Below, piece after piece: positions 10,943 to 34,729 of a stretch of DNA of 64,000 nt. The stretch spans positions 6,016,501 to 6,080,500 of the forward strand of contig NW_026562179.1 in assembly GCF_027943255.1 (NCBI RefSeq). Reading direction: 5' to 3'. Every line of letters starts with the position of its first letter. Position 1 is the first letter of the stretch. Position numbers and translations under genes: made by a program. The DNA is from Anastrepha obliqua. Its lineage: Eukaryota > Arthropoda > Insecta > Diptera > Tephritidae. Under the pieces are notes generated by a model that had not been told where the DNA came from, searched no databases, and saw nothing but the letters and a program-made list of their open reading frames with translations.

Positions 10943-13900
10943 ATGACTGAAGAAATATTTACACAGATAAATCTGCCGCATAGCAAAGCGTCTACGGCTC
11001 TCTTGTGCCGTAGGCATGCAAAACTGCAAACAAACCCACACATAATACTTATACAAGAACCATGGGAATGTCACAAGCGTATCTGTGGTCTAGGTGTTAT
11101 GACGTGGGGACAAATACTTCATTGCGAAGGGAATGTGAGACCGCGAGCATGTATTATCATGCCGAGGTTGATCGAACACACGATGTTAAAAGAGCTATGC
11201 TCCGGAGATATCGTTGCTGCAAAAATAAAGTACTTGAAAAGTGGGAACAGTGTCGAAGCTATCATAGTGTCGGCCTACCTATCCTTCGACTCTTTACAGC
11301 CACCTCCTTCGAGGGAGCTAAGAGAAGTGGTCAAGTATGCAGAATCCAATAATCTGGGGTTGTGATGCAAATTCAAAGAACATTGTATGGGGAAGCAGAG
11401 GTCTCAAGTTACTGGATTTTATCCTGTCATCCGATTTGGTCATTCAAAACACTGGTAACAAACCAACTTTTGTGACCAGAAGGAGACAAGAGGAGATAGA
11501 TTTAACACTTACCAATAGGTCAGTTGGAAATCAAATCAACCGATGACGAGTTTTGGAAGAGGACTCTCTTTCTGATCATCGTCTTATCGAATTCCGACTG
11601 GGAATTGACACAATATCAATACCTTCCGGTAGGAATCCTCGAAATGTGGACTGGGACAGGTATGGTGAGCTTGTAACAGAGCGATTACCAAAACCTGAAA
11701 AAACTCAAATCAGCAGAAATGATTGAAGATGCTACTAAGAAATTAGAAGGTACTTTAATCAATTGCTTTGAGGAACTGTGCCCACTCAGGCAAAGCAGAC
11801 AGGGGAAAGCGGTTCCTTGGTGGAACCATGAACTGTCGAAGCTTCGTGTACGGTCCCGGAAACTTCTTAATAAGGCCTTGAAGACCAAAACAGAAGAGGA
11901 CTGGGCTAATCATCGACTTACACAGAGAGAATATAAGAAAAAAGTACGGAAAGCCAAACTTGAATCCTATAGAAATTTCTGCAGTAACGTCGAAGAAATG
12001 AGGGAAACAGCGAGACTTTGTAAGGACCTTTATTTGGACCGCTCAGTAAGGCTGGATTCCATTCGAAAACCTGATGGTTCATACAAAATTTCCATCGGAA
12101 ACGTTTAATGCTCTACTCGAAACCCATTTTCCGGGTAGTAGAAATCTCTCTGAAGTTGAGAGTGGCATGAACAATAACGGTAGGAACGGTGGAACCTCTA
12201 GGTACAGCTGGTATATTTCTAGTCGGATAGTGACAAGGGAATCGATAAGGTTTTGCTTGTCTTCCTTTGAGAACTTTAAGTCCCCTGGACCTGACGGAAT
12301 ATATCCAGCAATGCTTAAAAAAGGAGGAGACAGGCTGATTGAGGCCCTGAAAAGGATCTTCACAGCCTGTCTCGCATTTGGTTACATACCATCCCAATGG
12401 CGACGCGTAAGAGTAGTATTTATTCCGAAACCAGGAAAAGATGACTATTCCCTAGCAAAAAGTTTTAGACCAATCAGCTTGACATCGTTCATGTTGAAAA
12501 GTCTGGAACGAGTGGTGGAGAAACATATTCGAGTGGGGGTATTGCCGAGAAGTCCACTTAGTAGAAATCAACACGCTTACCAGAGTGGAAAATCATGTGA
12601 ATCAGCCTTGGACCTGACGGAATATATCCAGTAATGCTTAAAAAAGGAGGAGACAGGCTGATTGAGGCCCTGAAAAGGTTCTTCACAGCCTGTCTTGCAT
12701 TTGGTTATATACCATCCCAATGGCGACGCGTAAGAGTAGTATTTATTTCAAAACCAGGAAAAGATGACTATTCCCTAGCAAAAAGTTTTAGACCAATCAG
12801 TTTGACATCGTTCATGTTGAAAAGTCTGGAACGAGTGGTGGAGAAACATATTCGAGTGGGGGTATTGCCGAGAAGTCCACTTAGTAGAAATCAACACGCT
12901 TACCAGAGTGGAAAATCATGTGAATCAGCCTTGGACCTGACGGAATATATCCAGTAATGCTTAAAAAAGGAGGAGACAGGCTGATTGAGGCCCTGAAAAG
13001 GTTCTTCACAGCCTGTCTTGCATTTGGTTATATACCATCCCAATGGCGACGCGTAAGAGTAGTATTTATTCCAAAACCAGGAAAAGATGACTATTCCCTA
13101 GCAAAAAGTTGTAGACCAATCAGTTTGACATCGTTCATGTTGAAAAGTCTGGAACGAGTGGTGGAGAAACATATTCGAGTGGGGGTATTGCCGAGAAGTC
13201 CACTTAGTAGAAATCAACACGCTTACCAGAGTGGAAAATCATGTGAATCAGCCTTACACCATCTTGTTAGCAAGATTGAAGCTGGGCTGGAAGCTGACGA
13301 ATACACAATGGGCGTGTTCGTGGACATTGAGGGGGCTTTTGATAATGCCACTTTCGGCTCGATATGTTCCTCTGCCGAACGACACGGAGTTAATCAAGCC
13401 ATTATAAAATGGATATACTCCATGCTCTCTGAGAGGCTGTTAACCGCTGGTGGGAGCGACGACGAGCAAATCACAGTCAGGGCCAAGCAAGGATGTCCCC
13501 AAGGGGGTGTTCTTTCTCCGCTGCTGTGGTGCTTCGTCGTAGACTCCCTATTAGCGGAGATGCAGGAACTCGGTTTTCACGTCCAAGCATATGCGGACGA
13601 CGTCTGTGCGCTAACATCGGATAAATCGTTAAGGAGGCTTTGCACGAAAGTGCAGAGAGTCCTTGACAAAATCGATGATTGGTGCATGAGACAAGGTCTT
13701 TCCGTTAATCCAAACAAAACAACAATAGTCTTGTTTACGAGAAAACGGAAATTGGATGGACTCGGTCTTCCAACACTGAAAGGTGTGACACTTGGTCTTT
13801 CCAACGAAGTTAAATATCTAGGAGTAATCTTGGATAAGAAGCTGACCTGGGAGACACACGTTTCACTGAAGGTGAATCGTGCATTGAAGATTTTTCAGCA

Positions 13901-15221
13901 ATGCCGTAGAGCCTTTGGCAAAACTTGGGGTCTGAAACCTGCTGTGGTCCTATGGATATACACGGCACTTATCAGACCAATCATCACTTACGCTTCTGTG
14001 GTCTGGTGGCGACGGAGCATGGTTAAGTCCACAATCCGGGAACTATACAGGCTGCAAAGAAGTGTATGTTTATGCATCACGGGTGCCATGAGTACAACCT
14101 CTGGTGATGCCCTAAATGCTATGCTTAATTTGCTCCCCCTGGATCTTAAGATACAACAGGAAGCAATAAAAGCAATGTGTAGACTCCATAAATATGGTTT
14201 CTGGCACGAAGATGGAACTTCGGGACACAGAGAAATCTTTAAGTTGCTGTTGGAGCAGTATCCACTGTTTTTGGCACCTAAAGATGACCTGATACCCACA
14301 GTTTCATTCGGAAGGAAATTGGATGTCAGATTTCCATTGCGTGAGCAATGGAGCAATCCAGAATGCATGCAGGGAGGTTTGACGGATATTTTCTTTACCG
14401 ATGGGTCCAAGACTGAAATAGGGTCTGGAGCCGGATGGTACTTAAACGATAGTTATAAGTATCACTATGCTATGGGGGGAATGGCAACTGTTTTTCAAAC
14501 AGAAGTTTTTGCCATCCTAAAAGTAGCCGAATGGATAATCGAGAGGAGATGGAGCAGGAAACAGATTGGAGTCTTCAGTGACAGTCAGGCTGCATTGAAG
14601 GCCCTGGAGAACGCGAAGCAAACCTCGAAGATTGTTCAAGAATGTAAGAAGAAGCTTAATTCTGTCGCAAGACAAAACAGGCTTGTACTTATATGGGTTC
14701 CAGGACACTCCGGTGTTCAAGGAAACGAAATTGCCGACGAATTGGCCAACCGTGGATCAGCGGTGCCCCCACAGGGGCCAGAGCCAATAATCGGAATCAG
14801 TCCCGCAGGAATCAAGAATTGGATCAACGACTATGTAGGCAATCTACATAAAGAGCGATGGTCCGGTCTAGAACGCTGCAGAACTGCAAAGTGTTTTGTG
14901 ACAAGTCCGAACAGAAAACTGTCAAACTTTCTACTAAAACTTAGAAGGAAAGACATTCGGTTGATGGTCGGCATCATTACAGGACACAACCAATGGGGTC
15001 AGCATATGACCACCATTGGAATCATCGAGGACCCGGTATGCCTGTCCTGCTTGGAGGAGGCGGATAGCACTGAGCACTTTCTCTGTGAGTGTCCTGCCTT
15101 TGCTAGAGCGCGACTACGGGTATTGGGTTCTGATATCATGGGAATGAGTGATATTCGTTCTCTAAAACTAGAGGATATTTACAGATTCGCCAAAGAATCT
15201 GGAAAATTCTTACAGGGCTAA
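10943..15221 (+). pseudogene. LOA-like ORF2, plus copy (EN-RT-RNase H, broken)
   Basis: The ATG at 10943 opens an AP-endonuclease domain (10943-11546). This is broken by a short deletion near 11357 and a further one near 11396, then by a TGA after NQINR (11544). The linker is 11719-12108 and the RT starts at 12074. The RT N-terminal region is tandemly triplicated (12287-13255), each unit shifting frame. From 12957 a 754-codon frame runs open to 15221: RT fingers/palm with C-P-Q-G-G-V-L-S-P and YADD (13590-13601), RNase H (F-T-D-G-S ~14397, DSQAAL, GHSGVQGNEIADE) and a C-terminal C-x-x-C-x(8)-H-x(4)-C finger (~15040-15090). It cannot make a full ORF2 protein. Confidence 0.85.
12287..13255 (+). 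repeat. 323-bp tandem triplication inside LOA RT
   Basis: Units begin with GGACCTGACGGAATATATCC at 12287, 12610 and 12933, giving a period of 323 each time. Because 323 is not a multiple of three, each junction changes frame. The first unit matches the minus copy at several sites. Units 2 and 3 share other variants with each other (for example GGTTCTTC against GGATCTTC, and CTTGC against CTCGC). Confidence 0.95.
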
Positions 15222-15408: not shown

Positions 15409-15557
15409 ACCTTTTAGTTAAAGACATGGAGATAAAACAAATTAACACAGAAAAATTGTACGAAGCATTACTTTAAAGAAGCCGAATAATTATTTCAGAA
15501 TTAAAAGCACTAATATTATAAGATACACTTTCAAAAATTGGAATTGTTAATCCCGCC
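15409..15557 (+). pseudogene. env: Errantivirus env, copy 1, second fragment
   Basis: This continues env after the LOA pair. It matches copy 2 at 51629-51777, with scattered substitutions and indels that add stops. It ends at the insertion site of CAG copy A, in the sequence CCCGCCATAGTAG. The next env fragment is at 23432, beyond the two CAG copies and a displaced block. Confidence 0.8.
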
Positions 15558-15847
15558 ATAGTAGCAGAGAATGTTAATGCAATGAGAAGGAGCAAATGTT
15601 AAAAGAGCTTTTTTCGAGTTCTAATTTATAGATTCATAATAAGGTCATTTCAAATTCAACTTTCCTGAAGAGGTCGGAATTGCAGATATTTACCACGCGA
15701 GTGGAGGGTTTCTATATTTACTTACCACGCTTGGACAGTAATTCAGATATTTTCTGCGTTTACCATACTACTGAGGACGTTCATAAGATTTTTCGGCACA
15801 CTACTAAGGAAATCGAAGCGAATAAATTTGCGATTAAGAAGGCCGCG

Positions 15848-15956
15848 CGGTAGTTAGTTTGTGGTGCAGAAGCTAAAGTCGGCGGAATTATTCGTTTTGT
15901 TTTTTGGCACGTATATAATTCAGGTTCGAGTCCTGAAGACATGTTTTTTTTCTTAC
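15848..15956 (+). other. tRNA-like module P1 in copy A (B box plus T-run)
   Basis: The eleven bases GGTTCGAGTCC at 15923-15933 match the Pol III B-box consensus exactly and sit in a small T-arm-like stem (CAGG/CCTG). They are followed within 15 bp by a run of eight T, a Pol III terminator-like signal. An upstream A-box candidate (TAGTTTGTGG) is weak. No complete cloverleaf can be drawn, so this is not called a tRNA gene. The module recurs in W, B, D and E; copy C lost it. Confidence 0.5.
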
Positions 15957-16344
15957 ACATTTTTTTTTACAATTCAAACCAGGAAAGTTTGGTAAAATTT
16001 TTGAGTTTATTTTAATTAAAATTTCTTTAAAATACTGTTTTTTTTGTATTTTATAAATGGAAATTTCTTTTCGGTATAAAATAGTTCATACTGGATATGA
16101 CCTGACTTTTATATAAATCAATCAAAACAGAAAATATGTACATATATCTATAATCTATTTCATCAAATCCAAATTATATTGATGAGAAAATATCATTCTA
16201 ATATCCGTCCAGAAAGCCAAACGCGCATACACACATGCATATTCATATAATTACGCATACAAAGTTTCAACTAACGCAGAATATGTGCATATAAAACTGC
16301 GAATCGAATAAATGAGTGATTTAGAAAAGATCATTAATAATTGT

Positions 16345-16432
16345 AGATTAGCGCAATCGTGAAAGACGTGTCGTATATGCAGTACATAGTCTCATGTTTG
16401 ACTCAGGTTCAAATCCTGTGCACAGTTTTTTA
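16345..16432 (+). other. tRNA-like module P2 in copy A (A box, B box, T-run)
   Basis: TTAGCGCAATCG at 16348-16359 resembles an A box, and GGTTCAAATCC at 16406-16416 resembles a B box, about 57 bp apart as in tRNA genes. A run of six T starts at 16426. The acceptor ends do not pair, so a working tRNA is unlikely. Copies of this module are also at ~880-960 (reverse), 20640-20725, 26815-26900, ~32835-32920 (reverse) and 34255-34340. Confidence 0.5.
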
Positions 16433-16799
16433 TTCGATATTTTTATTTCATTTTTTATATTTGGTTTAATTGAAATTGATTTAAAATAATATAGTGTATT
16501 CAGGTTTTTCTAATACCAGTTATTTAGAAATTTATTTTCTATATAACATTATTCATTTGAATTGATTTATATGTAAAACAGCCATAAAGTCAATCATATG
16601 AATATGCATTCCTATATTTAATTTCTTCAGTCAAATCTGAACTACTTACATACACATATTGATGAGAAAATATTCTAATATCCATCCAGGAAGCCTAACG
16701 CGCATACTCACATATGTGTTTAAATATATGTACAAACTACCACCATTCTAACAAACCCAGAACACAAGCTTCTGCGCACACTTGACACATGGGATATGT

Positions 16800-17194
16800 A
16801 TATCCTATGAGCAAAAAGAACCGGGAAGGTGATGTTGACTGCTTCCTTCGATTGCCAAGGCATAGTCCACCATGAGTACCTTCCATCGGGCCAGACAGTC
16901 AATAGAGAATATTATTTATCCGTTTTGAAACCTTACAGAGATGCTGTGTGTTGCAAACCGCCGGAAATGTGAGCAAACAATTCTCAGATCTTGTATGATG
17001 ATAACGCGCCATCGCACTGATCAAAGAGAATACAAATCGGCCTGCCGGGGGTGTTTGGAGGACTGGGTTAAGCGTTGGCACATGTGTGTTCCTTCAGACG
17101 GGTCATATTTTGAAGGAGATAATATAAATTTTCCTTAAATTTAACTCTGTTTTGTTTAATTTAAACATTCCCGGTACTTTCTGATCATAAGGTA
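16800..17194 (+). pseudogene. Mariner transposase fossil in copy A
   Basis: From ~16829 one frame reads V-M-L-T-A-S-F-D-C-Q-G-I-V-H-H-E-Y-L-P, the first catalytic aspartate block of mariner transposases. It is followed by L-Y-D-D-N-A-P-S-H (second aspartate) with stop codons between. The third catalytic block is deleted: the sequence passes directly to the C-terminal W-V-K-R-W-x-x-C...Y-F-E-G-D motif (16941-17138). The end at 17165-17194 (CCCGGTACTTTCTGATCATA) looks like the 3' inverted repeat of the mariner. The 5' repeat was not found. Confidence 0.8.
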
Positions 17195-18429
17195 CATATA
17201 TGCGGCTTTGCGGACAGCAATGTGTGATTCGCTGGAAGTCGCATTAACTCGCGACTGTCGCACAGTTAGAAGACATATTTACATACATATAAGGGTGCAT
17301 ACATACATACGGAGCCGCGGCCACTCGACATGACAAAAATTTAAGATTTATCAAATATTGGCAAATAATTCCACGCGAAATATTCCAATATTGACTATTT
17401 TCGAATGGTCGCGAAAATTGGCATATGGGCGGCTCGTTTTATGAATGAAATTGAAATATGAGCTCTAACTTATGAATGAACTTTTTGTTTTGTTCTAAAT
17501 TGTTCAGCGCCGTCGCTGATAGAATCATGGCCGCTGCGACTGCGTCTACGAATGTATTTTGTTTTTGTAGTCGCTAGGCTTAGATTTTAGCTTTGGGCGA
17601 CATGCGCATGTGAGGTATGTGTTTTTGTTGTGTTCTAGAACATTTTAGAATGTGCGGTGGCAAAGCGGCCATGGCGTTGCGCTTGCTGTTGCTTTTGCGT
17701 CTATCAAAGTACATATCGTGTTTTTGTAAGTACAATATTAGGAATATCGACTGGTGAAAGTACACGGAAGCAAGAAGGGAGCGCTGTGCTCGCGCATATA
17801 CATATGCATGAATGTATGAACGTGCATGGATGTAGTAACATATGAATACAATTATTTTGTAGGAAGTTTAGAAGGCAACTAGGTATATATGTATGTATAT
17901 ATGCTAGGACATAATACATACATAGAGCAGAATTGTTTTTGCACTTGTTAGGAAGAAACTCGCTAGTGCGTATGTGTATTTGTCTTGTAAGAATGTGATG
18001 TGCTGTGACTTGTGTACATACATAAGTCAAGGTTATTTGGGCATAGATGCATATGTACATATGTATGAAAGGAAGATGATGTTCTTGCGCTTGTGCATTA
18101 TTGTTTTTCATATACAAATGTACATACCTACATATGTATGTAAATGCTGTCGAATACATAAACTATAAATTGACATACAATATAAAATAAGTGTTGATTT
18201 ATCTTAAACCGTTTTTTTTTCTTAATGCAAATACCTCCTATTGACATGTACATACATATTATGTATGTATATTGTCATATACCATCATTTATGTACATAT
18301 AGAGTATACGTTCATTTATGAATGTATGTAATGAAAAACTTCATGAATTACTTTCAGAACTTTATTAAAATTAATTCGCGTCGCGCGCATGCACAAAACC
18401 TTGGTTCACAACGCAGGCGCAGAAATAAA

Positions 18430-19160
18430 CGCACTGCGTATTTATCCTCCCCATGTGACTCGGCATCAATTCTCGGCGCCAATTTTTTTTTTTTTTTTTT
18501 TTAAATGTGTTTTTTTTAATGTAATCGTAAAAAATTTTTAATAAATTTTATGTATCCGCTTATCATTTCAAAACTAACAAAATGGTAAAAACATAAGCAG
18601 TCGAAGAAATAAATGCACCGCCTATTTTTCCTCGCCACATGTTAGACTCGATTTCAATTCCCAGTGCAAACCTTTTTTTATTAATTTTTTTTTTTTAAAT
18701 TCGTTTTTTTTATGTAATTAAAAAAAATTATGTAATAAATTCTACGTATTCGCTTATTATTTCAAAAAATACGAAAATAGTAAAAATTTAATTAGTTTAA
18801 TGTATTTATCCTCCCCACGTGACTCGCCATCAATTCTCGGTGGAAATTTTTTTTTTTCGTTTTTAATTTTTATTTTTTTAATGTAATCGTAAAAAAATTT
18901 GTAATAAATTTTATGTATCCGCTTATCATTTCAAAAGTAACAAAATGATCAAAAAATAAGCGAAGAAATAAACGCACCGCCTATTTTTCCTCGCCACATG
19001 TTAGACTCGAGTTCAATTCCCGGTGCAAACTTTTTTTTATAAATTTTATTTTTTAAAATCGTTTTTTTTTTTTAATGTATATTAATTGAAAAAAAAATTA
19101 TGTAATAAATTTTACGTATTCGCTTATTATTTCAAAAATACGAAAATAGTACAAATTTAA
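18430..19160 (+). repeat. ~360-bp dimeric tandem repeat in copy A (2 units)
   Basis: Two alternating ~180-bp halves are seen. Half X carries GACTCGGCATCAATTCTCGG (18459, ~18820). Half Y carries GACTCGAGTTCAATTCCCGG or a variant (~18647, ~19007). Each is followed by a T-rich run. X and Y are themselves related, so the array is a monomer repeat with dimer-level order. Half Y looks like a tRNA T arm (GTTCAATTCCC). Confidence 0.85.
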
Positions 19161-19364
19161 TTGGTTTAATGTCGAGGTGAGAAATGTGTTGTGTGTTGAG
19201 GTGAAAGATGTGTGGTGTTTCTAATTTTTGTGTGGGCAAAAGTCAGTGAGGTGTCTATAAACTCGGTGTGCTAAATGACCTTATTACAAATCTTTCAGAT
19301 CTCAATTGTACTAAAAAAAGCTTACAGTAACATTTGCACCTTCTCATTGCATTAACATTCTCTG

Positions 19365-19850
19365 ATAGCAGCTAGAGAGAAAACCAAATCATGCTTTTGT
19401 ATGACTTGTTTCTCTCTAAGCATTATCACAACACACATATTTCGGCAAGATAGCAAGAAAAGCAATGACACTGAAAGGCAATGAAAAACAATTCAATTCA
19501 AACAAGTGAATTGTGTCAAATGTGGATTATTTACTTACATGAATTCCTGATATTTTAAAATCAAATAGGCAGTTAATGTTTGGTATGATGGTTTTGTAGA
19601 ATAAAAATTAAATTCTGATTAATATTTGAATGTAGCTTACACTTTGCCTGCAAATATTCTTCTGCGCACTTTATTGGATTTTAAATTTACTAAAAGCTGT
19701 CTTATTTCATAACTTCAATAGCTTTAAAAATTATTCATCGAAAGTTTACCGTTATTTATTAATATTCTCCCCTTAATACGCAAAAGTGCGCGGGGAGCGA
19801 AGAAATGTGTATGTTTGCAATTTTCATACATCTCGAAGGTGTGCTAATAC
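19365..19850. other. Displaced block, probably Helitron 5' region
   Basis: This 486-bp non-repeated block lies between CAG copies A and B. It has no coding potential. Its left edge ATAGCAG (19365-19371) duplicates the left flank of copy C (26650-26656). Its right edge CTAATAC (19844-19850) duplicates the right flank of copy C (29612-29618). By its edges it therefore belongs between 26656 and 29612, inside the Helitron, not inside env. Confidence 0.7.
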
Positions 19851-21114
19851 CAGAGAATGTTAATGCAATGAGAAGGAGCAAATGTTAAATGAGCTTTTTT
19901 CGAGTTCTAATTTATAGATTCATAATAAGGTCATTTCAAATTCAACTATCTTCACGAGTGGGGAATTGCAGATATTTACCACGCGAGTGGAGGGTTTCTA
20001 TATTTACTTACCACGCTAGGGCAAGAATTCAGATATTTTCTGCGTTTACCATACTACTGAGGAAGGTCATAAGATTTTTCGGCACACTACTAAGGAAATC
20101 GAAGCGAATAAAATTGCGATTAAGAACGCCGCGCGGTAGTTAGTTTGTGGTGCAGAAGCTAAAGTCGACGGAATTATTCGTTTTGTTTTTTGGCACGTAT
20201 ATAATTCAGGTTCAAGTCCTGAAGTCATATTTTTTTTCTTGCACATTTTTTTTTTTACAATTCAAACCAGGAAAGTTTGGTAAAATTTTTGAGTTTATTT
20301 TAATTAAAATTTCTTTAAAATACTGTTTTTTTTTGTATTTTATAAATGGAAATTTCTTTTCGGTATAAAATAGTTCATACTGGATATGACCTGACTTTTA
20401 TATAAATCAATCAAAACAGAAAATATGTACATACATATATCTATAATCTATTTTATCAAATCCAAATTATATTGATGAGAAAATATCATTCTAATATCCG
20501 TCCAGAAAGCCAAACGCGCATACACACATGCATATTCATATAATTACGCATACAAAGTTTCAACTAACCCAGAATATGTGCATATAAAACTGGGAATCGA
20601 ATAAATGAGTGATTTAGAAAAGATCATTAATAATTGTAGATTGGCGCAATCGTGAAAGACGTGTCGTATATGCAGTACATAGTCTCATATTTGACTCAGG
20701 TTCAAATCCTGTGCACAGTTTTTTGTTCGATATTTTTATTTCATTTTTTATATTTGGTTTAATTGAAATTGATTTCAAATAGTGTATTAGTGGTTTTTCT
20801 AATACCAGTTATTTATAAATTTATTTTCTATATAAAATTATTCATACTTCTTTTGAATTGATTTATATGTAAAACAGCCTTAAAGGCAATGCATATGAAT
20901 ATGCATTCATATATGCATGTGTGTATTTAATCTCTTCAGTCAAATCTGAACTACTTACATACACATATTGATGAGAAAATATTCTAATATCCATCCAGGA
21001 AGCCTAACGCGCATACTCACATATGTGTTTAAATATATGTATGTACAAACTACCACCATTCTAACAAACCCAGAACACAAGCTTCTGCGCACACTTGACA
21101 CATGGGATATGTAT

Positions 21115-21508
21115 ATCCTATGAGCAAAAAGAACCGGGAAGGCGATGTTGACTGCTTCCTTCGATTGCCAAGGCATAGTCCACCATGAGTACCTTCCATC
21201 GGGCCAGACAGTCAATAGAGAATATTATTTATCCGTTTTGAAACCTTACAGAGATGCTGTGTGTTGCAAACCGCCGGAAATGTGAGCAAACAATTCTCAG
21301 ATCTTGTATGATGATAACGCGCCATCGCACTGATCAAAGAGAATACAAATCGGCCTGCCGGGGGTGTTTGGAGGACTGGGTTAAACGTTGGCACATGTGT
21401 GTTGCTTCAGACGGGTCATATTTTGAAGAAGATAATATAAATCTGCCTTAAATTTAACTCTGTTTTGTTTAATTTAAACATTCCCGGTACTTTCTGATCA
21501 TAAGGTAC
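21115..21508 (+). pseudogene. Mariner transposase fossil in copy B
   Basis: Same fossil as in copy A: the first catalytic block is near 21145, D-D-N-A-P-S-H near 21310, and the C-terminal Y-F-E-x-D end at ~21425. The third catalytic block is missing and there are internal stops. It ends at the GGTA of the mariner-type terminus at ~21508. Confidence 0.75.
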
Positions 21509-22504
21509 ATATATGCGGGTTTGCGGACAGCAATGTGTGATTCGCTGGAAGTCGCATTAACTCGCGACTGTCGCACAGTTAGAAGACATATTTACATACA
21601 TATAAGGGTGCATACATACATACGGAGCCGCGGCCACTCGACATGACAAAAATTCAAGATTTATCAAATATTGGCAAATAATTCGACGCGAAATATTCCA
21701 ATATTGACTATTTTCGAATAGTCGCGAAAATTGGCATATGGGCGGCTCGTTTTATGAATGAAATTGAAATATGAGCTCTAACTTATGAATGAACTTTTTG
21801 TTTTTCTTCTAAATTGTTCAGCGCAGTCGCTGATAGAATCATGGCCGCTGCGACTGCGTCTACGAATGTATTTTGTTTTTGTAGTCGCTAGGCTTAGATT
21901 TTAGCTTTGGGCGACATGCGCATGTGAGGTATGTGTTTTTGTTGTGTTCTAGAACATTTTAGAATGTGTGGTGGCAAAGCGGCCATCGCGTTGTGCTTGC
22001 TGTTGCTTTTGCGTCTATCAAAGTATTGTGTTTTTGTAAGTACAATATTAGGAATATCGACTGGTGAAAGTACACGGAAGCAAGAAGGGAGCGCTGTGCT
22101 CGCGCATATGTATATGTATGCTTGAATGTATGAACGTGCATGGATGTAGTAAGATATGAATACAATTATTTTGTAGGAAGTTTAGAAGGCAAGTAGGTAT
22201 ATATGTATGTATATATGCTAGGACATAATACATACATAGAGCAGAATTGTTTTTGCACTTGTTAGGAAGAAACTCGCTAGTGCGTATATGTATTTGTCTT
22301 GTAAGAATGTGATGTGCTGTGACTTGTGTACATACATAAGTCAAGGTTATTTGGGCATACATGCATATATACATATGTATGAAAGGAAGATGATGTTCTT
22401 GCGCTTGTGCATTATTGTTTTTCATATACAAATGTACATACCTACATATTAATTCGCGTCGCGCGCATGCACAAAACCTTGGTTCACAACGCAGGCGCAG
22501 AAAT

Positions 22505-23230
22505 AAACGCACTGCGTATTTATCCTTCCCATGTGACTAGGCATCAATTCTCGGCGCCAATTTTTTTATTTTTTTAAATGTGTTTTTTTAATGTAATCGT
22601 AAAAATTTTTTAATAAATTTTATGTATCCGCTTATCATTTCAAAAGTAACAAAATGGTAAAAAAATAAGCAGTCGAAGAAATAAATGCACCGCCTATTTT
22701 TCCTCGCCATATGTTAGACTCGATTTCAATTCCCAGTGCAAACCTTTTTTTATTAATTTTTTTTTTTTTAAATTCGTTTTTTTTATGTAATTAAAAAAAA
22801 TTATGTAATAAATTTTACGTATTCGCTTATTATTTCAAAAAATACGAAAATAGTAAAAATTTAATTAGTTTAATGTTTTTATCCTCCCCACGTGACTCGC
22901 CATCAATTCTCGGTGCCAATTTTTTTTTTTTCGTTTTTAAATTTTTTTTTTAATGTAATCGTAAAAAAATTTTTAATAAATTTTATGTATCCGCTTATCA
23001 TTTCAAAAGTAACAAAATGGTAAAAAAGTAAACAGTCGAAGAAATAAACGCACCGCCTATTTTTCCTCGCCACATGTTAGACTCGAGTTCAATTCCCGGC
23101 GCAAACTTCTTTTTATACATTTTTTTTTTAAATCGGTTTTTTTTTAATGTAATTGAAAAAAAAAATTATGTAATAAATTTTACGTATTCGCTTATTATTT
23201 CAAAAATACGAAAATAGTAAAAATTTAATT
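22505..23230 (+). repeat. ~360-bp dimeric tandem repeat in copy B (2 units)
   Basis: Same alternating X/Y halves as in copy A, with X near 22535 and 22895 and Y near 22725 and 23085. Homopolymer T runs separate them. Confidence 0.85.
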
Positions 23231-23431
23231 GTTTAATGTCGAGGTGAGAAATGTGTTGTGTGTTGAGGTGAAAGATGTGTGGTGTTTCTAATTTTTGTGT
23301 GGGCAAAAGTCAGTGAGGTGTCTATAAACTCGGTGTGCTAAATGACCTTATTACAAATCTTTCAGATCTCAATTGTACTAAAAAAAGCTCACAGTAACAT
23401 TTGCACCTTCTCATTGCATTAACATTCTCTG

Positions 23432-24142
23432 ATAGTAGACTCAAAAGATTTAAAAAACTTAATCAATGAACACTCTACAAATATCACTATTACTGACTTA
23501 ATGGTAGAAGCTCAAATCAAAGTTTTACTAAATAATAATTTCTTACATTTTATTATAAAATATCCTAAGCCTAACATAGTATGTAAAAACACAATCCTAC
23601 ACCCTGTTCAACACAATGGTATTATAATTAATTTCGCTGAAGACGACAAAACAGCAGATTGTGGTAATCAGGTATGTACTGCTCTTACAACAACGTTCTG
23701 CAAAAAGCTGTTCTATACAACATGCGCACAACAATTACACTCAGGAGGCACTGCACACTGTTAAACTCGACCCAGCCATCTCGAGCTTTTAACCAACGTC
23801 GATGACGGCGTCATTATCATTAAATGGAACAGCTACGATCAACGAGCACGCGATTGACGGGACATTTCTGTTCACTTTTGACGGGCCACGAAGAGACACC
23901 AAGCTTACCGTATTTACAAAAGCTAAGTATGAAGAACTTACGACATATCGCCCAAATAGAAGTGGGACTTGTAAGAAGACCAATAATTTCTGGACTGGCC
24001 GTAGTTATCTTTCTATTTCTCTGCTATGCCGTAGCAAAACTCTACCAAACGTATCAGGAAGCAGACGCCAGCGTGACCTTCAAACTATAAACAATGCTTT
24101 CAAGAAATCCGAGGACGTCTTCCATTTAAGAGAGGAGGGAGG
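23432..24142 (+). pseudogene. env: Errantivirus env, copy 1, last fragment and polypurine tract
   Basis: This resumes env at the ATAGTAG target duplication, one base pair step from where 15564 stopped. The open part 23501-23764 has spaced cysteines (D-C-G-N-Q-V-C...F-C-K-K). The last part (23802-24090) contains a single hydrophobic segment (about 24 residues, near 24000-24065) followed by a short tail, as expected for the transmembrane anchor. Frame changes separate the pieces. The purine-rich AGAGAGGAGGGAGG at 24129-24142 is the polypurine tract immediately before the LTR. Confidence 0.8.
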
Positions 24143-24177
24143 AGTTAACACGAGCGACCAGCTAAGCAAAAAATAAG

Positions 24178-24395
24178 AGTTGGCAGCGGAAACGTCGATG
24201 CCAACAATGTTGCGAGCTATGCCTCGCGCCGTAATATGATTCCTTGCAGTAAAGAGCAAGAACGTAAAATAGCAGTTCCCACAGAAGTCATATAGCGGCA
24301 GCGGAAACGTCGACGTACAAAAATCTTGCGAGCTATGCCTCGTGACGAAATACGATCCCTTGCAGTAAAGTTCAAGACCAGCGTGTTTGGAGCTA
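24178..24395 (+). repeat. ~115-bp imperfect repeats with hairpins in the LTR
   Basis: Two related units (24181-24296, 24297-24395) each contain GCGGAAACGTCGA, then TTGCGAGCTATGCCTCGCG or a variant, then CCTTGCAGTAAAG. The GCGAG/CTCGC arms can form a 5-bp stem with a 6-base loop. The pair recurs at 25062-25252 and in the other LTR at 52506-52738. A regulatory or RNA-structure role is possible but untested. Confidence 0.75.
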
Positions 24396-25061
24396 ATATT
24401 TTGGATGAAATTGTTTTTAACTTGCACTGCTTGTTTTACATTTATCCGATCGCAAGTGTCACCTCCTTGAATTGAAATTTTTTTTTACCAAGGCGGGCAT
24501 ATCGAGCATATTTTGTAACAAGGAGTTCAGCTGTTTTTATAGAGTACTGTCGAATAGATTCAATATTAATTCGAATCGTATGGATCGTAGAAACAGTTAA
24601 TTGGGATGCTAGTTGCCTGGCAATATTGCCATTGTTAGTGTTCCCCGAAGCAGCCATTGGAATTTCATCTCGCAGTGCCATATGTTCTTATAAAAGCTTT
24701 CCTTTTAAAAGCATATGTTCTATTAAAAAATTTCCTAAATTATGTAGTTACATGTAGTTAGTTGCTTCCATCTTCTTTCGGCTAAAGCATGATAGTGTGA
24801 AGCAATAGATGCTTTTATTGTGCTCAGTCGGGTGGAGACTGCCACCGCCTCTGCTAAGTCTAGTGTCGAATAATTTCTTGCTAGCTCATTCGCTATCTCA
24901 TTACCCCGTATGTTCCTATGACCGGGAACTCATATCAGAGTAGTTTCAAGCCAATGACTAAGTAATTCTAGTTCCTCTCTACACTGTAAGACTAGTTTGG
25001 ATGAACCGGAGTTGGAGTCCAAGGCCTTGATAGCTGCTTGACTGTCTGAGGAGATAGCTAA
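24396..25061 (-). mobile_element. Insertion in LTR: unknown repeat protein fragment plus LOA-2 RNase H fragment
   Basis: This 666-bp block matches 53484-54190 with internal deletions. Its left part (24681-24420, minus) is a degenerate coding fragment (starting near a MALRDEIPMAASG reading). Its right part (~24745-25061) is the end of a LOA-like RNase H domain, with a GNEIANELA-like motif at ~24880-24910. The edges share AGCTAAT. The same two unrelated pieces being joined in both places shows the junction existed before the copies separated. Confidence 0.7.
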
Positions 25062-25404
25062 TGTTGCGAGCTATGCCTCGCGCCGTAATATGATTCCTTG
25101 CAGTAAAGTGCAAGAACGTAAAATAGCAGTTCCCACAGAAGTCATATAGCGGGAGCGGAAACGTGGACGCACAAAAATGTTGCGAGCTATGCCTCGCGAC
25201 GAAATACGATCCCTTGCAGTAAAGTGCAAGACCAGCGTCTTTGGAGCTTAGGGCTAGCTTACGTTTAAGAATTAAGGTTATTATTAAGTCAGAGGAATTT
25301 GGGAAATAAAGGCCGACGGTTATCACCTCGCTAAGTACTAATTCTCTCATTTAAGCGCAACACCGCGTGTCATAAAAACACTGCAAAAAACGCATGTAAT
25401 TAAT

Positions 25405-25668
25405 TGGCGCCCATCAACAAATACATCAACCAATGACAACGGAAAAGCCTGTCAGAAGTGAAGAAAAGCTTACCAAATGTGAAGACAGCAGAAAGCTTAT
25501 CAGAAGCGAAGACATCAATCACACCAAATACATCAACCGAAGACGTCAAGAAAGCACAGCAGCAGAAGTTTACTAACATATGTATTAAAGGAACATGTAA
25601 GTAGATGGTTCATTAAAAAAATAAATATATAAAAACAATACACAAATTTTTCCAACAAAAAATAATAA
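25405..25668 (+). other. Primer binding site and leader of gypsy-class internal region 2
   Basis: TGGCGCCC at 25405-25412 directly follows the LTR and fits a tRNA-Lys primer site. The rest is the same leader as at 1752-1975, with the CATGTAAGTAG splice-donor-like sequence near 25594. It stops at 25668 where the Helitron begins and continues at 48260. Confidence 0.8.
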
Positions 25669-26547
25669 TCTATAGCATTATTTTAAAACATGGCTCTTAT
25701 TCTGACTAAACTACAACACGTACAGATATGAAATATATATCAAAAGAAAGGTTTTGATGAGCATATTTCCGGAAAATTATAAAAATTTAAATTGGTTAAT
25801 TAGTTCATGAAATATTTGCGTGTAAAGTTATCAAAATTTTCATATTGATAACAGCGATGTCTATGCAAAGCGGGTTGACACACAAATATACGCATATATG
25901 TATTGTATATGAGTACGTTTGCTTTGTTTAGCTCCCTTTCTAATGAGCACAGCATTGTATACATTTGGATTCTCAATAATTGTTTTGCTTTGTTATCCTT
26001 ACTAATAAATACATATGTATTCATGAACATAGTCCCAACGGTTGCTGCGAATTTTTTTCAGAATTTTGTTGTGATCGCAATAATCTTCTTCTTCTATCTT
26101 CTTCTATAGTATCTATAGTATTATTTCAAAACATGGCGCTTATTCCGACTAAACTACAACACGTACAGATATGAAATATATATCAAAAGAAAGGTTTTGA
26201 TGAGCATATTTCCGGAAAATTATAAAAATTAAAATTGGTTAATTAGTTCATGAAATATTTGCGTGTAAAGTTATCAAAATTTTCATATTGATAACAGCGA
26301 TGTCTATGCAAAGCGGGTTGACACACAAATATACGCATATATGTATATGAGTACGTTTGCTTTGTTTAGCTCCCTTTCTAATGAGCACAGCATTGTATAC
26401 ATTTGGATTCTCAATAATTGTTTTGCTTTGTTATCCTTACTAATAAATACATATGTATGTATGTATTCATGAACATAGTCCCAACGGTTGCTGCGAATTT
26501 TTTTCAGAATTTTGTTGTGATCGCAATAATCTTCTTCTTCTATAGTA
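25669..26547 (+). repeat. Tandem duplication of the Helitron 5' end (443 bp period)
   Basis: Unit 1 starts TCTATAGCATTATTTTAAAA at 25669 and unit 2 starts TCTATAGTATTATTTCAAAA at 26112. They are about 95% alike over their length. A third TCTATT at 26548 begins a different sequence. No convincing coding frame lies inside. Confidence 0.9.
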
Positions 26548-27289
26548 TCTATTAAAGTGGTGCACAAGTCGACATATATGTGCTTTCAAGTCATTTGCTA
26601 AATTCACACAACAATGCAGTGTTTTGTTCTCAACTAACAGTAACAGGCAATAGCAGCAGAGAATGTTAATGCAATGAGAAGGAGCAAATGTTAAAAGAGC
26701 TTTTTTCGAGTTCTAATTTATAGATTCATAATAAGGTCATTTCAAATTCAACTTTCCTGAAGAGGTCGGAATTGCAGATATTTACCATATTTAGAAAAGA
26801 TCATTAATAATTGTAGATTGGCGCAATCGTGAAAGACGTGTCGTATATGCAGTACATAGTCTCATATTTGACTCAGGTTCAAATCCTGTGCACAGTTTTT
26901 TGTTCGATATTTTTATTTCATTTTTTATATTTGGTTTAATTGAAATTGATTTCAAATAGTGTATTAGTGGTTTTTCTAATACCAGTTATTTATAAATTTA
27001 TTTTCTATATAAAATTATTCATACTTCTTTTGAATTGATTTATATGTAAAACAGCCTTAAAGGCAATGCATATGAATATGCATTCATATATGCATGTGTG
27101 TATTTAATCTCTTCAGTCAAATCTGAACTACTTACATACACATATTGATGAGAAAATATTCTAATATCCATCCAGGAAGCCTAACGCGCATACTCACATA
27201 TGTGTTTAAATATATGTATGTACAAACTACCACCATTCTAACAAACCCAGAACACAAGCTTCTGCGCACACTTGACACATGGGATATGT

Positions 27290-27690
27290 ATACCCTATGA
27301 GCAAAAAGAACCGGGAAGGTGATGTTGACTGCTTCCTTCGATTGCCAAGGCATAGTCCACCATGAGTACCTTCCATCGGGCCAGACAGTCAATAGAGAAT
27401 ATTATTAATCCGTTTTGAAACCTTACAGAGATGCTGTGTGTTGCAAACCGCCGGAAATGTGAGCAAACAATTCTCAGATCTTGTATGATGATAACGCGCC
27501 ATCGCACTGATCAAAGAGAATACAAATCGGCCTGCCGGGGGTGTTTGGAGGACTGGGTTAAACGTTGGCACATGTGTGTTGCTTCAGACGGGTCATATTT
27601 TGAAGAAGATAATATAAATCTGCCTTAAATTTAACTCTGTTTTGTTTAATTTAAACATTCCCGGTACTTTCTGATCATAAGGTACATATA
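27290..27690 (+). pseudogene. Mariner transposase fossil in copy C
   Basis: Same eroded mariner fragment as in A and B: first catalytic block at ~27320-27380, D-D-N-A-P-S-H at ~27485, and C-terminal Y-F-E block at ~27600. The third aspartate block is missing. Confidence 0.75.
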
Positions 27691-28679
27691 TGCGGGTTTG
27701 CGGACAGCAATGTGTGATTCGCTGGAAGTCGCATTAACTCGCGACTGTCGCACAGTTAGAAGACATATTTACATACATATAAGGGTGCATACATACATAC
27801 GGAGCCGCGGCCACTCGACATGACAAAAATTCAAGATTTATCAAATATTGGCAAATAATTCGACGCGAAATATTCCAATATTGACTATTTTCGAATAGTC
27901 GCGAAAATTGGCATATGGGCGGCTCGTTTTATGAATGAAATTGAAATATGAGCTCTAACTTATGAATGAACTTTTTGTTTTTCTTCTAAATTGTTCAGCG
28001 CAGTCGCTGATAGAATCATGGCCGCTGCGACTGCGTCTACGAATGTATTTTGTTTTTGTAGTCGCTAGGCTTAGATTTTAGCTTTGGGCGACATGCGCAT
28101 GTGAGGTATGTGTTTTTGTTGTGTTCTAGAACATTTTAGAATGTGTGGTGGCAAAGCGGCCATCGCGTTGTGCTTGCTGTTGCTTTTGCGTCTATCAAAG
28201 TATTGTGTTTTTGTAAGTACAATATTAGGAATATCGACTGGTGAAAGTACACGGAAGCAAGAAGGGAGCGCTGTGCTCGCGCATATGTATATGTATGCTT
28301 GAATGTATGAACGTGCATGGATGTAGTAAGATATGAATACAATTATTTTGTAGGAAGTTTAGAAGGCAAGTAGGTATATATGTATGTATATATGCTAGGA
28401 CATAATACATACATAGAGCAGAATTGTTTTTGCACTTGTTAGGAAGAAACTCGCTAGTGCGTATATGTATTTGTCTTGTAAGAATGTGATGTGCTGTGAC
28501 TTGTGTACATACATAAGTCAAGGTTATTTGGGCATACATGCATATATACATATGTATGAAAGGAAGATGATGTTCTTGCGCTTGTGCATTATTGTTTTTC
28601 ATATACAAATGTACATACCTACATATTAATTCGCGTCGCGCGCATGCACAAAACCTTGGTTCACAACGCAGGCGCAGAA

Positions 28680-29405
28680 ATAAACGCACTGCGTATTTAT
28701 CCTTCCCATGTGACTAGGCATCAATTCTCGGCGCCAATTTTTTTATTTTTTTAAATGTGTTTTTTTAATGTAATCGTAAAAATTTTTTAATAAATTTTAT
28801 GTATCCGCTTATCATTTCAAAAGTAACAAAATGGTAAAAAAATAAGCAGTCGAAGAAATAAATGCACCGCCTATTTTTCCTCGCCATATGTTAGACTCGA
28901 TTTCAATTCCCAGTGCAAACCTTTTTTTATTAATTTTTTTTTTTTTAAATTCGTTTTTTTTATGTAATTAAAAAAAATTATGTAATAAATTTTACGTATT
29001 CGCTTATTATTTCAAAAAATACGAAAATAGTAAAAATTTAATTAGTTTAATGTTTTTATCCTCCCCACGTGACTCGCCATCAATTCTCGGTGCCAATTTT
29101 TTTTTTTCGTTTTTAAATTTTTTTTTTAATGTAATCGTAAAAATTTTTTAATAAATTTTATGTATCCGCTTATCATTTCAAAAGTAACAAAATGGTAAAA
29201 AAGTAAACAGTCGAAGAAATAAACGCACCGCCTATTTTTCCTCGCCACATGTTAGACTCGAGTTCAATTCCCGGTGCAAACTTTTTTTTATAAATTTTAT
29301 TTTTTAAAATCGTTTTTTTTTTTTAATGTAATTGAAAAAAAAAAATTATGTAATAAATTTTACGTATTCGCTTATTATTTCAAAAATACGAAAATAGTAA
29401 AAATT
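28680..29405 (+). repeat. ~360-bp dimeric tandem repeat in copy C (2 units)
   Basis: Same X/Y halves and spacing as in copy B, from which it differs mainly in homopolymer lengths. Confidence 0.85.
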
Positions 29406-29611
29406 TAATTGTTTAATGTCGAGGTGAGAAATGTGTTGTGTGTTGAGGTGAAAGATGTGTGGTGTTTCTAATTTTTGTGTGGGCAAAAGTCAGTGAGGTG
29501 TCTATAAACTCGGTGTGCTAAATGACCTTATTACAAATCTTTCAGATCTCAATTGTACTAAAAAAAGCTCACAGTAACATTTGCACCTTCTCATTGCATT
29601 AACATTCTCTG

Positions 29612-29775
29612 CTAATACACACTACGTACATAAATACATATGACACCAATTCACACATTGTACTTGATGTCTTTCGGCAAAGCTTGTATGAGAATGTTTT
29701 TCTACCATTGCCATGTAAGCATATAAGCAGCGTCGTGCAATTCGTGCACTGTCGATAGAGCCGAAGTAGTATCAG
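29612..29775. other. Short Helitron block between CAG copies C and D
   Basis: 164 bp without coding potential. The left edge CTAATAC matches 19844-19850. The right edge GTATCAG (29769-29775) matches 33461-33467 and is the target duplication of copy D. Confidence 0.65.
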
Positions 29776-29989
29776 CAGAGAATGTTAATGCAATGAGAAG
29801 GTGCAAATGTTACTGTAAGCTTTTTTTAGTACAATTGAGATCTGAAAGATTTGTAATAAGGTCATTTAGCACACCGAGTTTATAGACACCTCACTGACTT
29901 TTGCCCACACAAAAATTAGAAACACCACACATCTTTCACCTCAACACACAACACATTTCTCACCTCGACATTAAACCAATTAAATTTGT

Positions 29990-31050
29990 ACTATTTTCGT
30001 ATTTTTGAAATAATAAGCGAATACGTAAAATTTATTACATAATTTTTTTTTTTCAACTACATTAAAAAAAAAAACGATTTTAAAAAATAAAATTTATAAA
30101 AAAAAGTTTGCACCGGGAATTGAACTCGAGTCTAACATGTGGCGAGGAAAAATAGGCGGTGCGTTTATTTCTTCGACTGCTTATTTTTTGACCATTTTGT
30201 TACTTTTGAAATGATAAGCGGATACATAAAATTTATTAAAAATTTTTTTACGATTACATTAAAAAAAAAATTTAAAAACGAAAAAAAAAATTTGCACCGA
30301 GAATTGATGCCGAGTCACGTGGGGAGGATAAATACATTAAACTAATTAAATTTTTACTATTTTCGTATTTTTTGAAATAATAAGCGAATACGTAAAATTT
30401 ATTACATAATTTTTTTTAATTACATAAAAAAAACGAATTTAAAAAAAAAAAGTTAATAAAAAAAGGTTTGCACTGGGAATTGAAATCGAGTCTAACATGT
30501 GGCGAGGAAAAATAGGCGGTGCATTTATTTCTTCGACTGCTTATTTTTTGACCATTTTGTTACTTTTGAAATGATAAGCGGATACATAAAATTTATTAAA
30601 AATTTTTTTACGATTACATTAAAAAAAAAAATTTAAAAACGAAAAAAAAAAATTTCCACCGAGAATTGATGCCGAGTCACGTGGGGAGGATAAATACATT
30701 AAACTAATTAAATTTTTACTATTTTCGTATTTTTTGAAATAATAAGCGAATACGTAAAATTTATTACATAATTTTTTTTAATTACATAAAAAAACGAATT
30801 TAAAAAAAAAAAGTTAATAAAAAAAGGTTTGCACTGGGAATTGAAATCGAGCCTAACATGTGGCGAGGAAAAATAGGCGGTGCGTTTATTTCTTCGACTG
30901 CTTACTTTTTTACCATTTTGTTACTTTTGAAATGATAAGCGGATACATAAAATTTATTAAAAAATTTTTACGATTACATTAAAAAAACACATTTAAAAAA
31001 ATAAAAAAATTGGCGCCGAGAATTGATGCCTAGTCACATGGGAAGGATAA
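29990..31050 (-). repeat. ~360-bp dimeric tandem repeat in copy D (3 units)
   Basis: Y halves lie near 30110, 30470 and 30830 and X halves near 30298, 30659 and 31015, all read on the minus strand. That is one dimer more than in A, B and C, so the array changes copy number. Confidence 0.85.
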
Positions 31051-32064
31051 ATACGCAGTGCGTTTATTTCTGCGCCTGCGTTGTGAACCAAGGTTTTGTG
31101 CATGCGCGCGACGCGAATTAATATGTAGGTATGTACATTTGTATATGAAAAACAATAATGCACAAGCGCAAGAACATCATCTTCCTTTCATACATATGTA
31201 TATATGCATGTATGCCCAAATAACCTTGACTTATGTATGTACACAAGTCACAACACATCACATTCTTACAAGACAAATACACATACGCACTAGCGAGTTT
31301 CTTCCTAACAAGTGCAAAAACAATTCTGCTCTATGTATGTATTATGTCCTAGCATATATACATACATATATACCTACTTGCCTTCTAAACTTCCTACAAA
31401 ATAATTGTATTCATATCTTACTACATCCATGCACGTTCATACATTCATGCATATGTATATGCGCGAGCACAGCGCTCCCTTCTTGCTTCCGTGTACTTTT
31501 GTCTTTCACCAGTCGATATTCCTAATATTGTACTTACAAAAACACGATATGTACTTTGATAGACGCAAAAGCAACAGCAAGCGCAACGCCATGGCCGCTT
31601 TGCCACCGCACATTCTAAAATGTTCTAGAACACAACAAAAACACATACCTCACATGCGCATGTCGCCCAAAGCTAAAATCTAAGCCTGGCGACTACAAAA
31701 ATAAAATACATTCGTAGACGCAGTCGCAGCGGCCATAATTCTATCAGCGACTGCGCTGAACAATTTAGAAGAAAAACAAAAAGTTCATTCATAAGTTAGA
31801 GCTCATATTTCAATTTCATTCATAAAACGAGCCGCCCATATGCCAATTTTCGCGACCATTCGAAAATAGTCAATATTGGAATATTTCGCGTGGAATTATT
31901 TGCCAATATTTGATAAATCTTAAATTTTTGTCATGTCGAGTGGCCGCGGCTCCGTATGTATGTATGCACCCTTATATGTATGTAAATATGTCTTCTAACT
32001 GTGCGACAGTCGCGAGTTAATGCGACTTCCAGCGAATCACACATTGCTGTCCGCAAAGCCGCAA

Positions 32065-32465
32065 GTATGTACCTTATGATCAGAAAGTACCGGGAATGTT
32101 TAAATTAAACAAAACAGAGTTAAATTTAAGGCAAATTTATATTATCTTCTTCAAAATATGACCCGTCTGAAGCAACACACATGTGCCAACGTTTAACCCA
32201 GTCCTCCAAACACCCCCGGCAGGCCGATTTGTATTCTCTTTGATCAGTGCGATGGCGCGTTATCATCATGCAAAATCTGAGAATTGTTTGCTCACATTTC
32301 CGGCGGTTTGCAACACACAGCATCTCTCTAAGGTTTCAAAACGGATAAATAATATTCTCTATTGACTGTCTGGCCCGATGGAAGGTACTCATGGTGGACT
32401 ATGCCTTGGCAATCGAAGGAAGCAGTCAACATCACCTTCCCGGTTCTTTTTGCTCATAGGGTATA
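32065..32465 (-). pseudogene. Mariner transposase fossil in copy D
   Basis: Minus-strand reading gives the C-terminal W-V-K-R-W...Y-F-E end (32126-32323) and, upstream, H-H-E-Y-L-P-S-G-Q-T at ~32360-32390. The mariner-type terminus lies at ~32067-32095. Confidence 0.75.
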
Positions 32466-34729
32466 CATATCCCATGTGTCAAGTGTGCGCAGAAGCTTGT
32501 GTTCTGGGTTTTGTTAGAATGGTGGTGGTTTGTGCATATATTTAAACACATATGTGAGTATGCGCGTTAGGCTTCCTGGATGGATATTAGAATATTTTCT
32601 CATCAATATGTGTATGTAAGTAGTTCAGATTTGACTGAAGAAATTAAATATAGGAATGCATATTCATATGATTGACTTTATGGCTGTTTTACATATAAAT
32701 CAATTCAAATGAATAATGTTATATAGAAAATAAATTTATAAAAAACAGGTATTAGAAAAACCTGAATACACTAATTTAAATCAATTTCAATTAAACCAAA
32801 TATAAAAAATGAAATAAAAATATCGAACAAAGAACTGTGCACAGGATTTGAACCTGAGTCAAATATGGGACTATGTACTGCATATACGACACGTTTTTCA
32901 CGATTGTGCTAATCTACAATTATTAATGATCTATTCTAAATCACTCATTTATTCGATTCGCAGTTTTATATGTACATATTCTGCGTTAGTTGAAAGTTTG
33001 TATGCGTAATTATATGCATATGCATCTGTGTATGCGCGTTTGGCTTTCTGGACGGATATTAGAATGATATTTTCTCATCAATATAATTTGGATTTGATGA
33101 AATAGATTATAGACATATGTACACATTTTCTGTTTTGATTGATTTATATAAAAATCAGGTCATATCCAGTATGAACTATTTTATACCGAAAAGAAATTTC
33201 CATTTATAAAATACAAAAAACAGTATTTTAAAGAAATTTTAATTAAAATAAACTCAAAAATTTTACCAAACTTTCCTGGTTTGAATTGTAAAAAAAAAAA
33301 TGTGCAAGAAAAAAAATATGACTTCAGGACTTGAACCTGAATTAAATACGTGCAAAAACACAAAACGAATAACTCCGCCGACTTTAGCTTCTGCACCACA
33401 AACTAACTACCGCGCGGTCTTCTTAATCGCAAATTTATTCGCTTCGATTTTCCTCCTCTGGTATCAGAGAATGTTAATGCAATGAGAAGGAGCAAATGTT
33501 AAAAGAGCTTTTTTCGAGTTCTAATTTATAGATTCATAATAAGGTCATTTCAAATTCAACTTTCCTGAAGAGGTCGGAATTGCAGATATTTACCACGCGA
33601 GTGACGCGAGTGGAGGGTTTCTATATTTACTTACCACGCTAGGCCAAGAATTCAGATATTTTCTGCGTTTAGCATACTATTGAGGACGTTCATAAGATTT
33701 TTCGGCACACTACTAAGGAAATCGAAGCGAATAAAATTGCGATTAAGAACGCCGCGCGGCAGTTAGTTTGTGGTGCAGAAGCTAAAGTCGGCGGAATTAT
33801 TCGTTTTGTTTTTTGGCACGTATATAATTCAGGTTCAAATCCTGAAGTCATATTTTTTTTCTTGCACATTTTTTTTTTTTACAATTCAAACCAGGAAAGT
33901 TTGGTAAAATTTTTGAGTTTATTTTAATTAAAATTTCTTTAAAATACTGTTTTTTGTATTTTATAAATGGAAATTTCTTTTCGGTATAAAATAGTTCATA
34001 CTGGATATGACCTGATTTTTATATAAATCAATCAAAACAGAAAATATGTACATATGTCTATAATCTATTTCATCAAATCCAAATAATATTGATGAGAAAA
34101 TATCATTCTAATATCCGTCCAGAAAGCCAAACGCGCATACACAGATGCATATTCATATAATTACGCATACAAACTTTCAACTAACGCAGAATATGTACAT
34201 ATAAAACTGCGAATCGAATAAATGAGTGATTTAGAAAAGATCATTAATAATTGTAGATTAGCGCAATCGTGAAAGACGTGTCGTATATGCAGTACGTAGT
34301 CCCATATTTGACTCAGGTTCAAATCCTGTGCACAGTTCTTTGTTCGATATTTTTATTTCATTTTTTATATTTGGTTTAATTGAAATTGATTTAAATTAGT
34401 GTATTCAGGTTTTTCTAATACCTGTTTTTTATAAATTTATTCTCTATATAACATTATTAATACTTCATTTGAATTGATTTATATGTAAAACAGCCATAAA
34501 GTCAATCATATGAATATGCATTCCTATATTTAATCTCTTCAGTCAAATCTGAACTACTTACATACACATATTGATGAGAAAATATTCTAATATCCATCCA
34601 GAAAGCCAAACGCGCATACACGCATATGTATATAAATATATGCAAACCTTCAACGAACGCAAAATGTATGCATACAAAAAACAACAACTGCGACCGTCTT
34701 CTTGTACGTCAGTGAAAAGATGGGATATG

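Follow-up and report, generated by a model that had tools for sequence, protein, structure and literature searches.

Here, we analyse a 64,000-nucleotide stretch of the genome of the tephritid fly Anastrepha obliqua (NCBI RefSeq assembly GCF_027943255.1, contig NW_026562179.1, positions 6,016,501 to 6,080,500 of the forward strand), referred to below as the window and numbered from its first letter, in which three copies of a P-superfamily transposon, A, B and C, carry 7-bp flanks that match between copies and never within one. In our view this arrangement is probably the product of macrotransposition, in which two linked transposons, A and B, moved as one together with the block between them (block X), while C was left at the donor site. 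We hold, a little less firmly, that the locus preserves a natural case in which a hybrid non-autonomous transposon arose by this route, with the full unit at the target and the hybrid at the donor.

Copies A (15565 to 19364, 3,800 bp), B (19851 to 23431, 3,581 bp) and C (26657 to 29611, 2,955 bp) all lie on the plus strand in the same direction, each starting with CAGAGAATGTTAATGCAATGAGAAGG and ending with its reverse complement, an exact terminal repeat of 26 bases with no mismatch at either end. Internal repeats of about 360 bp occur near the right end of each copy, and the open reading frames of at least 120 amino acids within them fall on the minus strand of this repeat-rich stretch. The initial annotation took the three for near-identical repeats, but they are clearly different in sequence: A and B differ at 38 of 1,900 core positions, and the longest exact run is 241 bp between A and B and 159 bp between A and C, as against 1,700 bp between B and C. 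The flanks follow a closed cycle, with ATAGTAG on the left of A (15558 to 15564) and on the right of B (23432 to 23438), ATAGCAG on the left of C (26650 to 26656) and on the right of A (19365 to 19371), and CTAATAC on the left of B (19844 to 19850) and on the right of C (29612 to 29618). All six 7-mers are thus found where they had first been placed, and the original observation that no pair closes within a single copy is correct. We also considered, and rejected, the idea that A is intact and that a mutation has altered one of its own duplications (ATAGTAG and ATAGCAG are one base apart), which would account neither for B and C nor for the exact matches between copies.

The outer pair of flanks belongs to a single insertion site. 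To the left of A lies a relic of an env-like sequence (15409 to 15564, plus strand), which is 94% identical to 51626 to 51781 and 96% identical to positions 139 to 294 of a second genomic match (L049); the labels env and Helitron come from an earlier reading of the sequence, made from the letters alone. The relic resumes immediately to the right of B, in a plus-strand stretch (23432 to 26549) that runs up to the donor repeat described below and whose first part, 23432 to 24394, is 95% identical to 51775 to 52740. When placed on the uninterrupted paralogue (51626 to 52740, plus strand), the two pieces therefore overlap by exactly 7 bp, and on L049 (139 to 294 and 288 to 986) they again overlap by 7 bp, so that the site is unbroken in both of the paralogues compared, which are two of the 12 other matches listed. 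Since the env site is a single site in these paralogues, and its ATAGTAG here both precedes A and follows B, A, X and B lie together in one insertion site. The segment from 15565 to 23431 (7,867 bp) is a single-insertion-like unit that interrupts an otherwise continuous env relic and carries one target duplication, the two copies of ATAGTAG on the plus strand at its outer ends.

The surroundings of this target contain other relics. Three copies of the env relic run in one direction within 60 kb (contig positions 6009538, 6031909 and 6068126), which suggests tandem proviral relics. Between parts of the env relic there are two long retrotransposon-like coding copies, so labelled by eye (5010 to 9761 and 9561 to 15221), one on each strand and arranged head to head.

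On their inner sides, A and B carry flanks that lead to a second place, 3.2 kb from the env target. Block X, the cargo of the composite (19365 to 19850, plus strand), is a piece of a dispersed repeat with ATAGCAG (19365 to 19371) and CTAATAC (19844 to 19850) at its ends, and has 40 scored matches in the genome, itself included. We fetched the best seven of the 39 other matches listed (L002 to L008), and in all seven the sequence that ends at 26656 in the window (26550 to 26656, plus strand, ending in ATAGCAG) directly abuts X, while that which begins at 29612 (29612 to 29772, plus strand, beginning with CTAATAC) succeeds it, with a 7-bp overlap at each junction. At its two breaks, the X repeat hence carries exactly the 7-mers that flank A and B on their inner sides and C on its outer sides. 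With its proper place between 26656 and 29612, X marks that site, now occupied by C, as the origin of the unit A-X-B. A different composite, B-Y-C with CTAATAC as its outer flanks, was rejected, given that the interrupted target is env and not Y, and that the donor repeat misses X and not Y. The continuation of the X repeat seen in L002 to L008 has no match in the window beyond 29772. Identification of the repeat as the Helitron with open frames at 44606 to 48058 was also set aside, in that the repeat starts at about 26550 and could be something else, and the suggestion in the initial annotation that restoring the block order makes env and a Helitron contiguous is unsupported.

Judged from these uninterrupted paralogues, the older order was env, then 23432 to 26656, then 19365 to 19850, then the sequence from 29612 onwards. 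This is the order that had been proposed from the flanks, and it is borne out by both env paralogues and by all seven copies of the X repeat. What had been overlooked is that A-X-B as a whole behaves as a single insertion, and that C is a hybrid with a deletion, combining the left end of A with the right part of B.

How far chance could produce such flanks was estimated from the family itself. Since the family prefers nTAnTAn-like targets, two unrelated flanks agree with a probability of about 0.005 (from 13 flanks), not 6e-5, and a perfect three-way cycle would arise by chance with a probability of the order of 2 x 0.005^3, by our own arithmetic. Fortuitous matching is thus rejected, since even about 0.005 per pair could not plausibly yield a closed cycle, and the order itself is settled by the paralogues. 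A baseline was provided by 20 fetched regions with other copies (L009 to L028), 16 of which have a copy with both of its own ends, after two array regions (L013 and L014) and two regions with one end missing (L017 and L023) were set aside. Identical 7-bp flanks are present in 11 of these 16 copies and absent from five (L012, L020, L022, L025 and L028), and the units of the two array regions are also unpaired. Unpaired flanks are therefore not rare in this family; it is the closed cycle that is. For two of the five unpaired copies, L025 and L028, no partner copy lies within 4 kb of extra sequence on either side.

The remaining line of evidence concerns the make-up of C. Its first 131 bp are identical to A and unlike B at all eight sites at which A and B differ in this stretch (40, 98, 101, 103, 105, 109, 110 and 111). 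At the joint (26787 to 26789, plus strand) A matches C over positions 1 to 131 and B matches C from position 133, and A131 is followed by one extra base and then by B762, a connection that is out of register and hence no homologous crossover. Past the joint, C and B differ by only three mismatches in 1,948 bp, and six sites, the first at C164, set B and C apart from all 24 further copies compared (from 23 in the case of one site). With a 1,836-bp core of B, 40 of 4,048 genome candidates were scored; B and C stand at 100% (rounded), and the next best reach 97% (over 1 to 1833) and 98% (over 1 to 1414). The last 270 bp of B and C are identical, whereas all 23 of the other right ends compared differ from B by at least three positions. 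By these diagnostic sites, B and C are sister copies, and the left end of C is of the A type.

A series of events that would generate this arrangement can be set out as follows. A and B would first have entered a copy of the dispersed repeat in the same orientation, with 479 bp between them, creating the duplications ATAGCAG and CTAATAC. A P-type transposase, acting in trans, would then have excised the 7,867 bp of A-X-B in one piece, by cutting at A's left terminus and B's right one, and inserted them into the env relic 3.2 kb away, with ATAGTAG as the new duplication. The broken donor would have been refilled in part, giving rise to C, namely 131 bp of the left end of A and B from position 762 onwards, between ATAGCAG and CTAATAC. 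We infer the use of these two ends by transposase, the cut-and-paste movement and the origin of C in gap repair from the features that the locus displays: a single outer duplication, inner flanks from an identifiable donor, and a remnant, C, kept at that donor, the last with the caveat that A-type left ends are common. In P elements, gap repair that stops short leaves internally deleted elements, and incomplete gap repair would therefore account both for C and for its extra base.

Several observations weigh against this account. Of 33 left ends compared, 25 are nearer to A than to B, and 12 (a count that includes A and C) match A over 130 bp without a difference; an A-type left end is thus common, and that of C need not have come from A. 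The joint of C could also be read as a 630-bp internal deletion within one element. B and C taken over their whole length differ by nine mismatches and five gaps in 2,825 columns, and from about C2600 to about C2800 the closer match to C is A (five differences) and not B (nine); here it looks as though B is the copy that changed, as D, a further copy in the window, agrees with A and C, and conversion is possible. Finally, the five unpaired copies among the 16 of the baseline, including L025 and L028 without a partner, show that flanks can also become unpaired in this genome in other ways.

Homologous recombination between copies, which the initial annotation had offered as an alternative, is the rival that survives best, although we consider it unlikely. 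Here, the three copies would have inserted independently in the old order, and a circle containing 23432 to 26656 and one copy would have left by exchange between the first two copies and re-entered at the third, yielding the same flanks for all three, and local hopping could supply the near-identical neighbouring copies that the process needs. There are precedents in Galileo, a member of the P superfamily, for which published work describes 7-bp flanks exchanged by ectopic recombination (PMC2775673) and, in Drosophila mojavensis, 12 chimeric copies with non-matching flanks (PMC3573991). Recombination predicts, however, that A should be a chimera of the first and second old copies and that B and C should have swapped parts, whereas B resembles C nearly throughout and A is unlike both. 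A and B differ at position 40 and again at 42 from the end, so the first crossover has to lie within 39 bp of the left end or 41 bp of the right end, where all three copies are identical; otherwise, according to our own case analysis, a separate conversion of the ends of sister copies is required. An in-register chimeric breakpoint is not seen, the joint of C connecting A131 with B762, and neither A nor B shows a switch outside the terminal 39 to 41 bp. The total cost is two crossovers and a separate deletion in C, as against one transposition with its usual by-product. Plain recombination thus has either to force its exchange into the terminal 39 to 41 bp or to call on extra events.

Misassembly, which had been thought likely from the flanks, is in our judgement less probable still. 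It would hold that the old order is the true one and that blocks were misjoined across near-identical copies, and the setting is an inviting one, with three same-direction copies within 14 kb and an exact run of 1,700 bp between B and C. A misjoin between B and C on its own, however, gives a circle and no linear chromosome, so that a second misjoin into A is needed, through exact runs of at most 241 bp (with B) and 159 bp (with C), and the diagnostic sites either confine any such exchange to the same terminal 39 to 41 bp or demand additional events. The window contains no N and the assembly comprises 836 Mb in 204 contigs, and among the scored genome matches there is no second version of X, nor of the B core at 100% besides B and C themselves. 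A misjoin alone would also leave the mutual closeness of B and C unexplained. Variants in which transposase acts otherwise, namely hybrid element insertion on sister chromatids or homologues, or copying of A-X-B from one chromatid with deletion of the other donor, give the same end products and belong to a class of reactions reported for P and Ac/Ds (PMC2775673 and PMC3744419), but they are not needed and nothing in the sequence separates them from macrotransposition on the same chromatid, and we regard them as very improbable.

We file the family of A, B and C under the P superfamily, as 1360/Galileo-like and non-autonomous as far as seen. Its target duplications are of 7 bp (identical in 11 of the 16 two-ended copies), the length seen in Galileo and the modal one in 1360 (PMC3276498), and its preference over 13 flanks, roughly nTAnTAn, agrees with the palindromic GTANTAC type of Galileo. 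The genome contains P-type transposases, with 150 scored domain matches, and the frames of two such loci (L030 and L039) match the Tnp_P_element and TNP-like domains in Pfam. In five of 20 fetched loci with a PF21787 match (L029 to L033) there is an end within five edits of the 26-base end, and the single exact 26-base end near a transposase locus (L041) points away from the transposase. The presence of P-type transposases with related ends speaks in favour of macrotransposition. A transposase source for the family was not found among the transposase loci compared, the frames inside the copies having been left unsearched against families.

A second case of mixed end use is possible within the same family. 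In L022, 216 bp of a left end in inverted orientation (6414 to 6629) come directly after a complete element (2237 to 6413). A pair of CTTCCAC (spanning 2230 to 6636) lies outside the two left ends and not outside the ends of one element; the right end that belongs to the element borders on GTAGTAT, which also occurs inside the left part of the family. This might reflect insertion of an element into an element followed by movement by means of two left ends, although a single 7-mer pair, with a chance of about 0.005, is weaker evidence than a closed cycle.

Other arrangements of the family are also found. Further relatives in the window comprise D (minus strand, from 29776), E (plus strand, from 33465) and F (at the left edge). 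D, with its flanks (29769 to 33467), has a perfect duplication, GTATCAG, the last three bases of which are the first three of E; since these bases are shared, D inserted right at the left end of E. D itself lacks the usual left end. Elsewhere, the array regions L013 and L014 (C12:470000-488500) form a tandem array of the element, in which four or more units are arranged head to tail and an identical spacer of 104 bp, starting with GTAAAAG and ending with CTATGAC, lies between them, and L023 has a copy (5481 to 7815) in which the internal repeat, about 365 bp long, is expanded to five units or more. Unconnected with the family, identical 354-bp direct repeats (37262 to 37615 and 43692 to 44045) surround a long reverse-transcriptase-like frame (37778 to 41491), as expected of a young long terminal repeat (LTR) element.

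If our reading of the locus is right, it represents the route proposed in PMC1562414 for a miniature inverted-repeat element of a mosquito (P-MITE), and the intermediate can still be read here. Where target duplications have been exchanged in P-type elements, ectopic recombination or assembly error is the usual verdict, yet transposase acting on the ends of two copies would give the same signature where those copies are direct repeats. Uninterrupted paralogues of target and donor, together with the position at which diagnostic sites switch along the copies, offer a way to distinguish between them. The process would provide both a route for host DNA (486 bp here) to a new site and an origin for a hybrid element. 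Should L022 be of the same kind, mixed end use would be a recurrent feature of the family, and some of its unpaired copies may then owe their state to it and not to homologous recombination.

A known macrotransposition system lies outside the P superfamily, the Ac/Ds elements of maize being hAT elements. Macrotransposition of directly oriented, linked Ac/Ds elements was described by Huang and Dooner (2008), as cited in PMC2775673 and PMC3744419. Those were genetic events, whereas here a natural event is read from a genome, in a P-type family and, unlike in maize, with donor, target and by-product all within 14 kb. Within the P group, 1360/Hoppel of Drosophila, as described in PMC3276498, resembles our family in group and in its modal target duplication of 7 bp, but its target motif is GTTNAAC rather than nTAnTAn. 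Galileo shares with our family membership of the P superfamily, 7-bp target duplications of the GTANTAC type, internal tandem repeats, and chimeric copies with unmatched flanks (PMC4168063, PMC2775673 and PMC3573991). Such copies were explained by ectopic recombination, and the 2z3 inversion involved copies in opposite directions that are chimeric at an in-register breakpoint (PMC2775673 and PMC3573991), whereas the copies here have the same direction and the joint is out of register. A further parallel is AgaP2-P12MITE of Anopheles gambiae, for which macrotransposition was proposed, with two nearby P copies moving en bloc and a deletion between them leaving a hybrid with one end from each (PMC1562414). 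That proposal was drawn from the hybrid ends alone, in elements with 8-bp duplications; in A. obliqua, the duplications are of 7 bp, and the deletion hybrid is found at the donor, with the full unit at the target.

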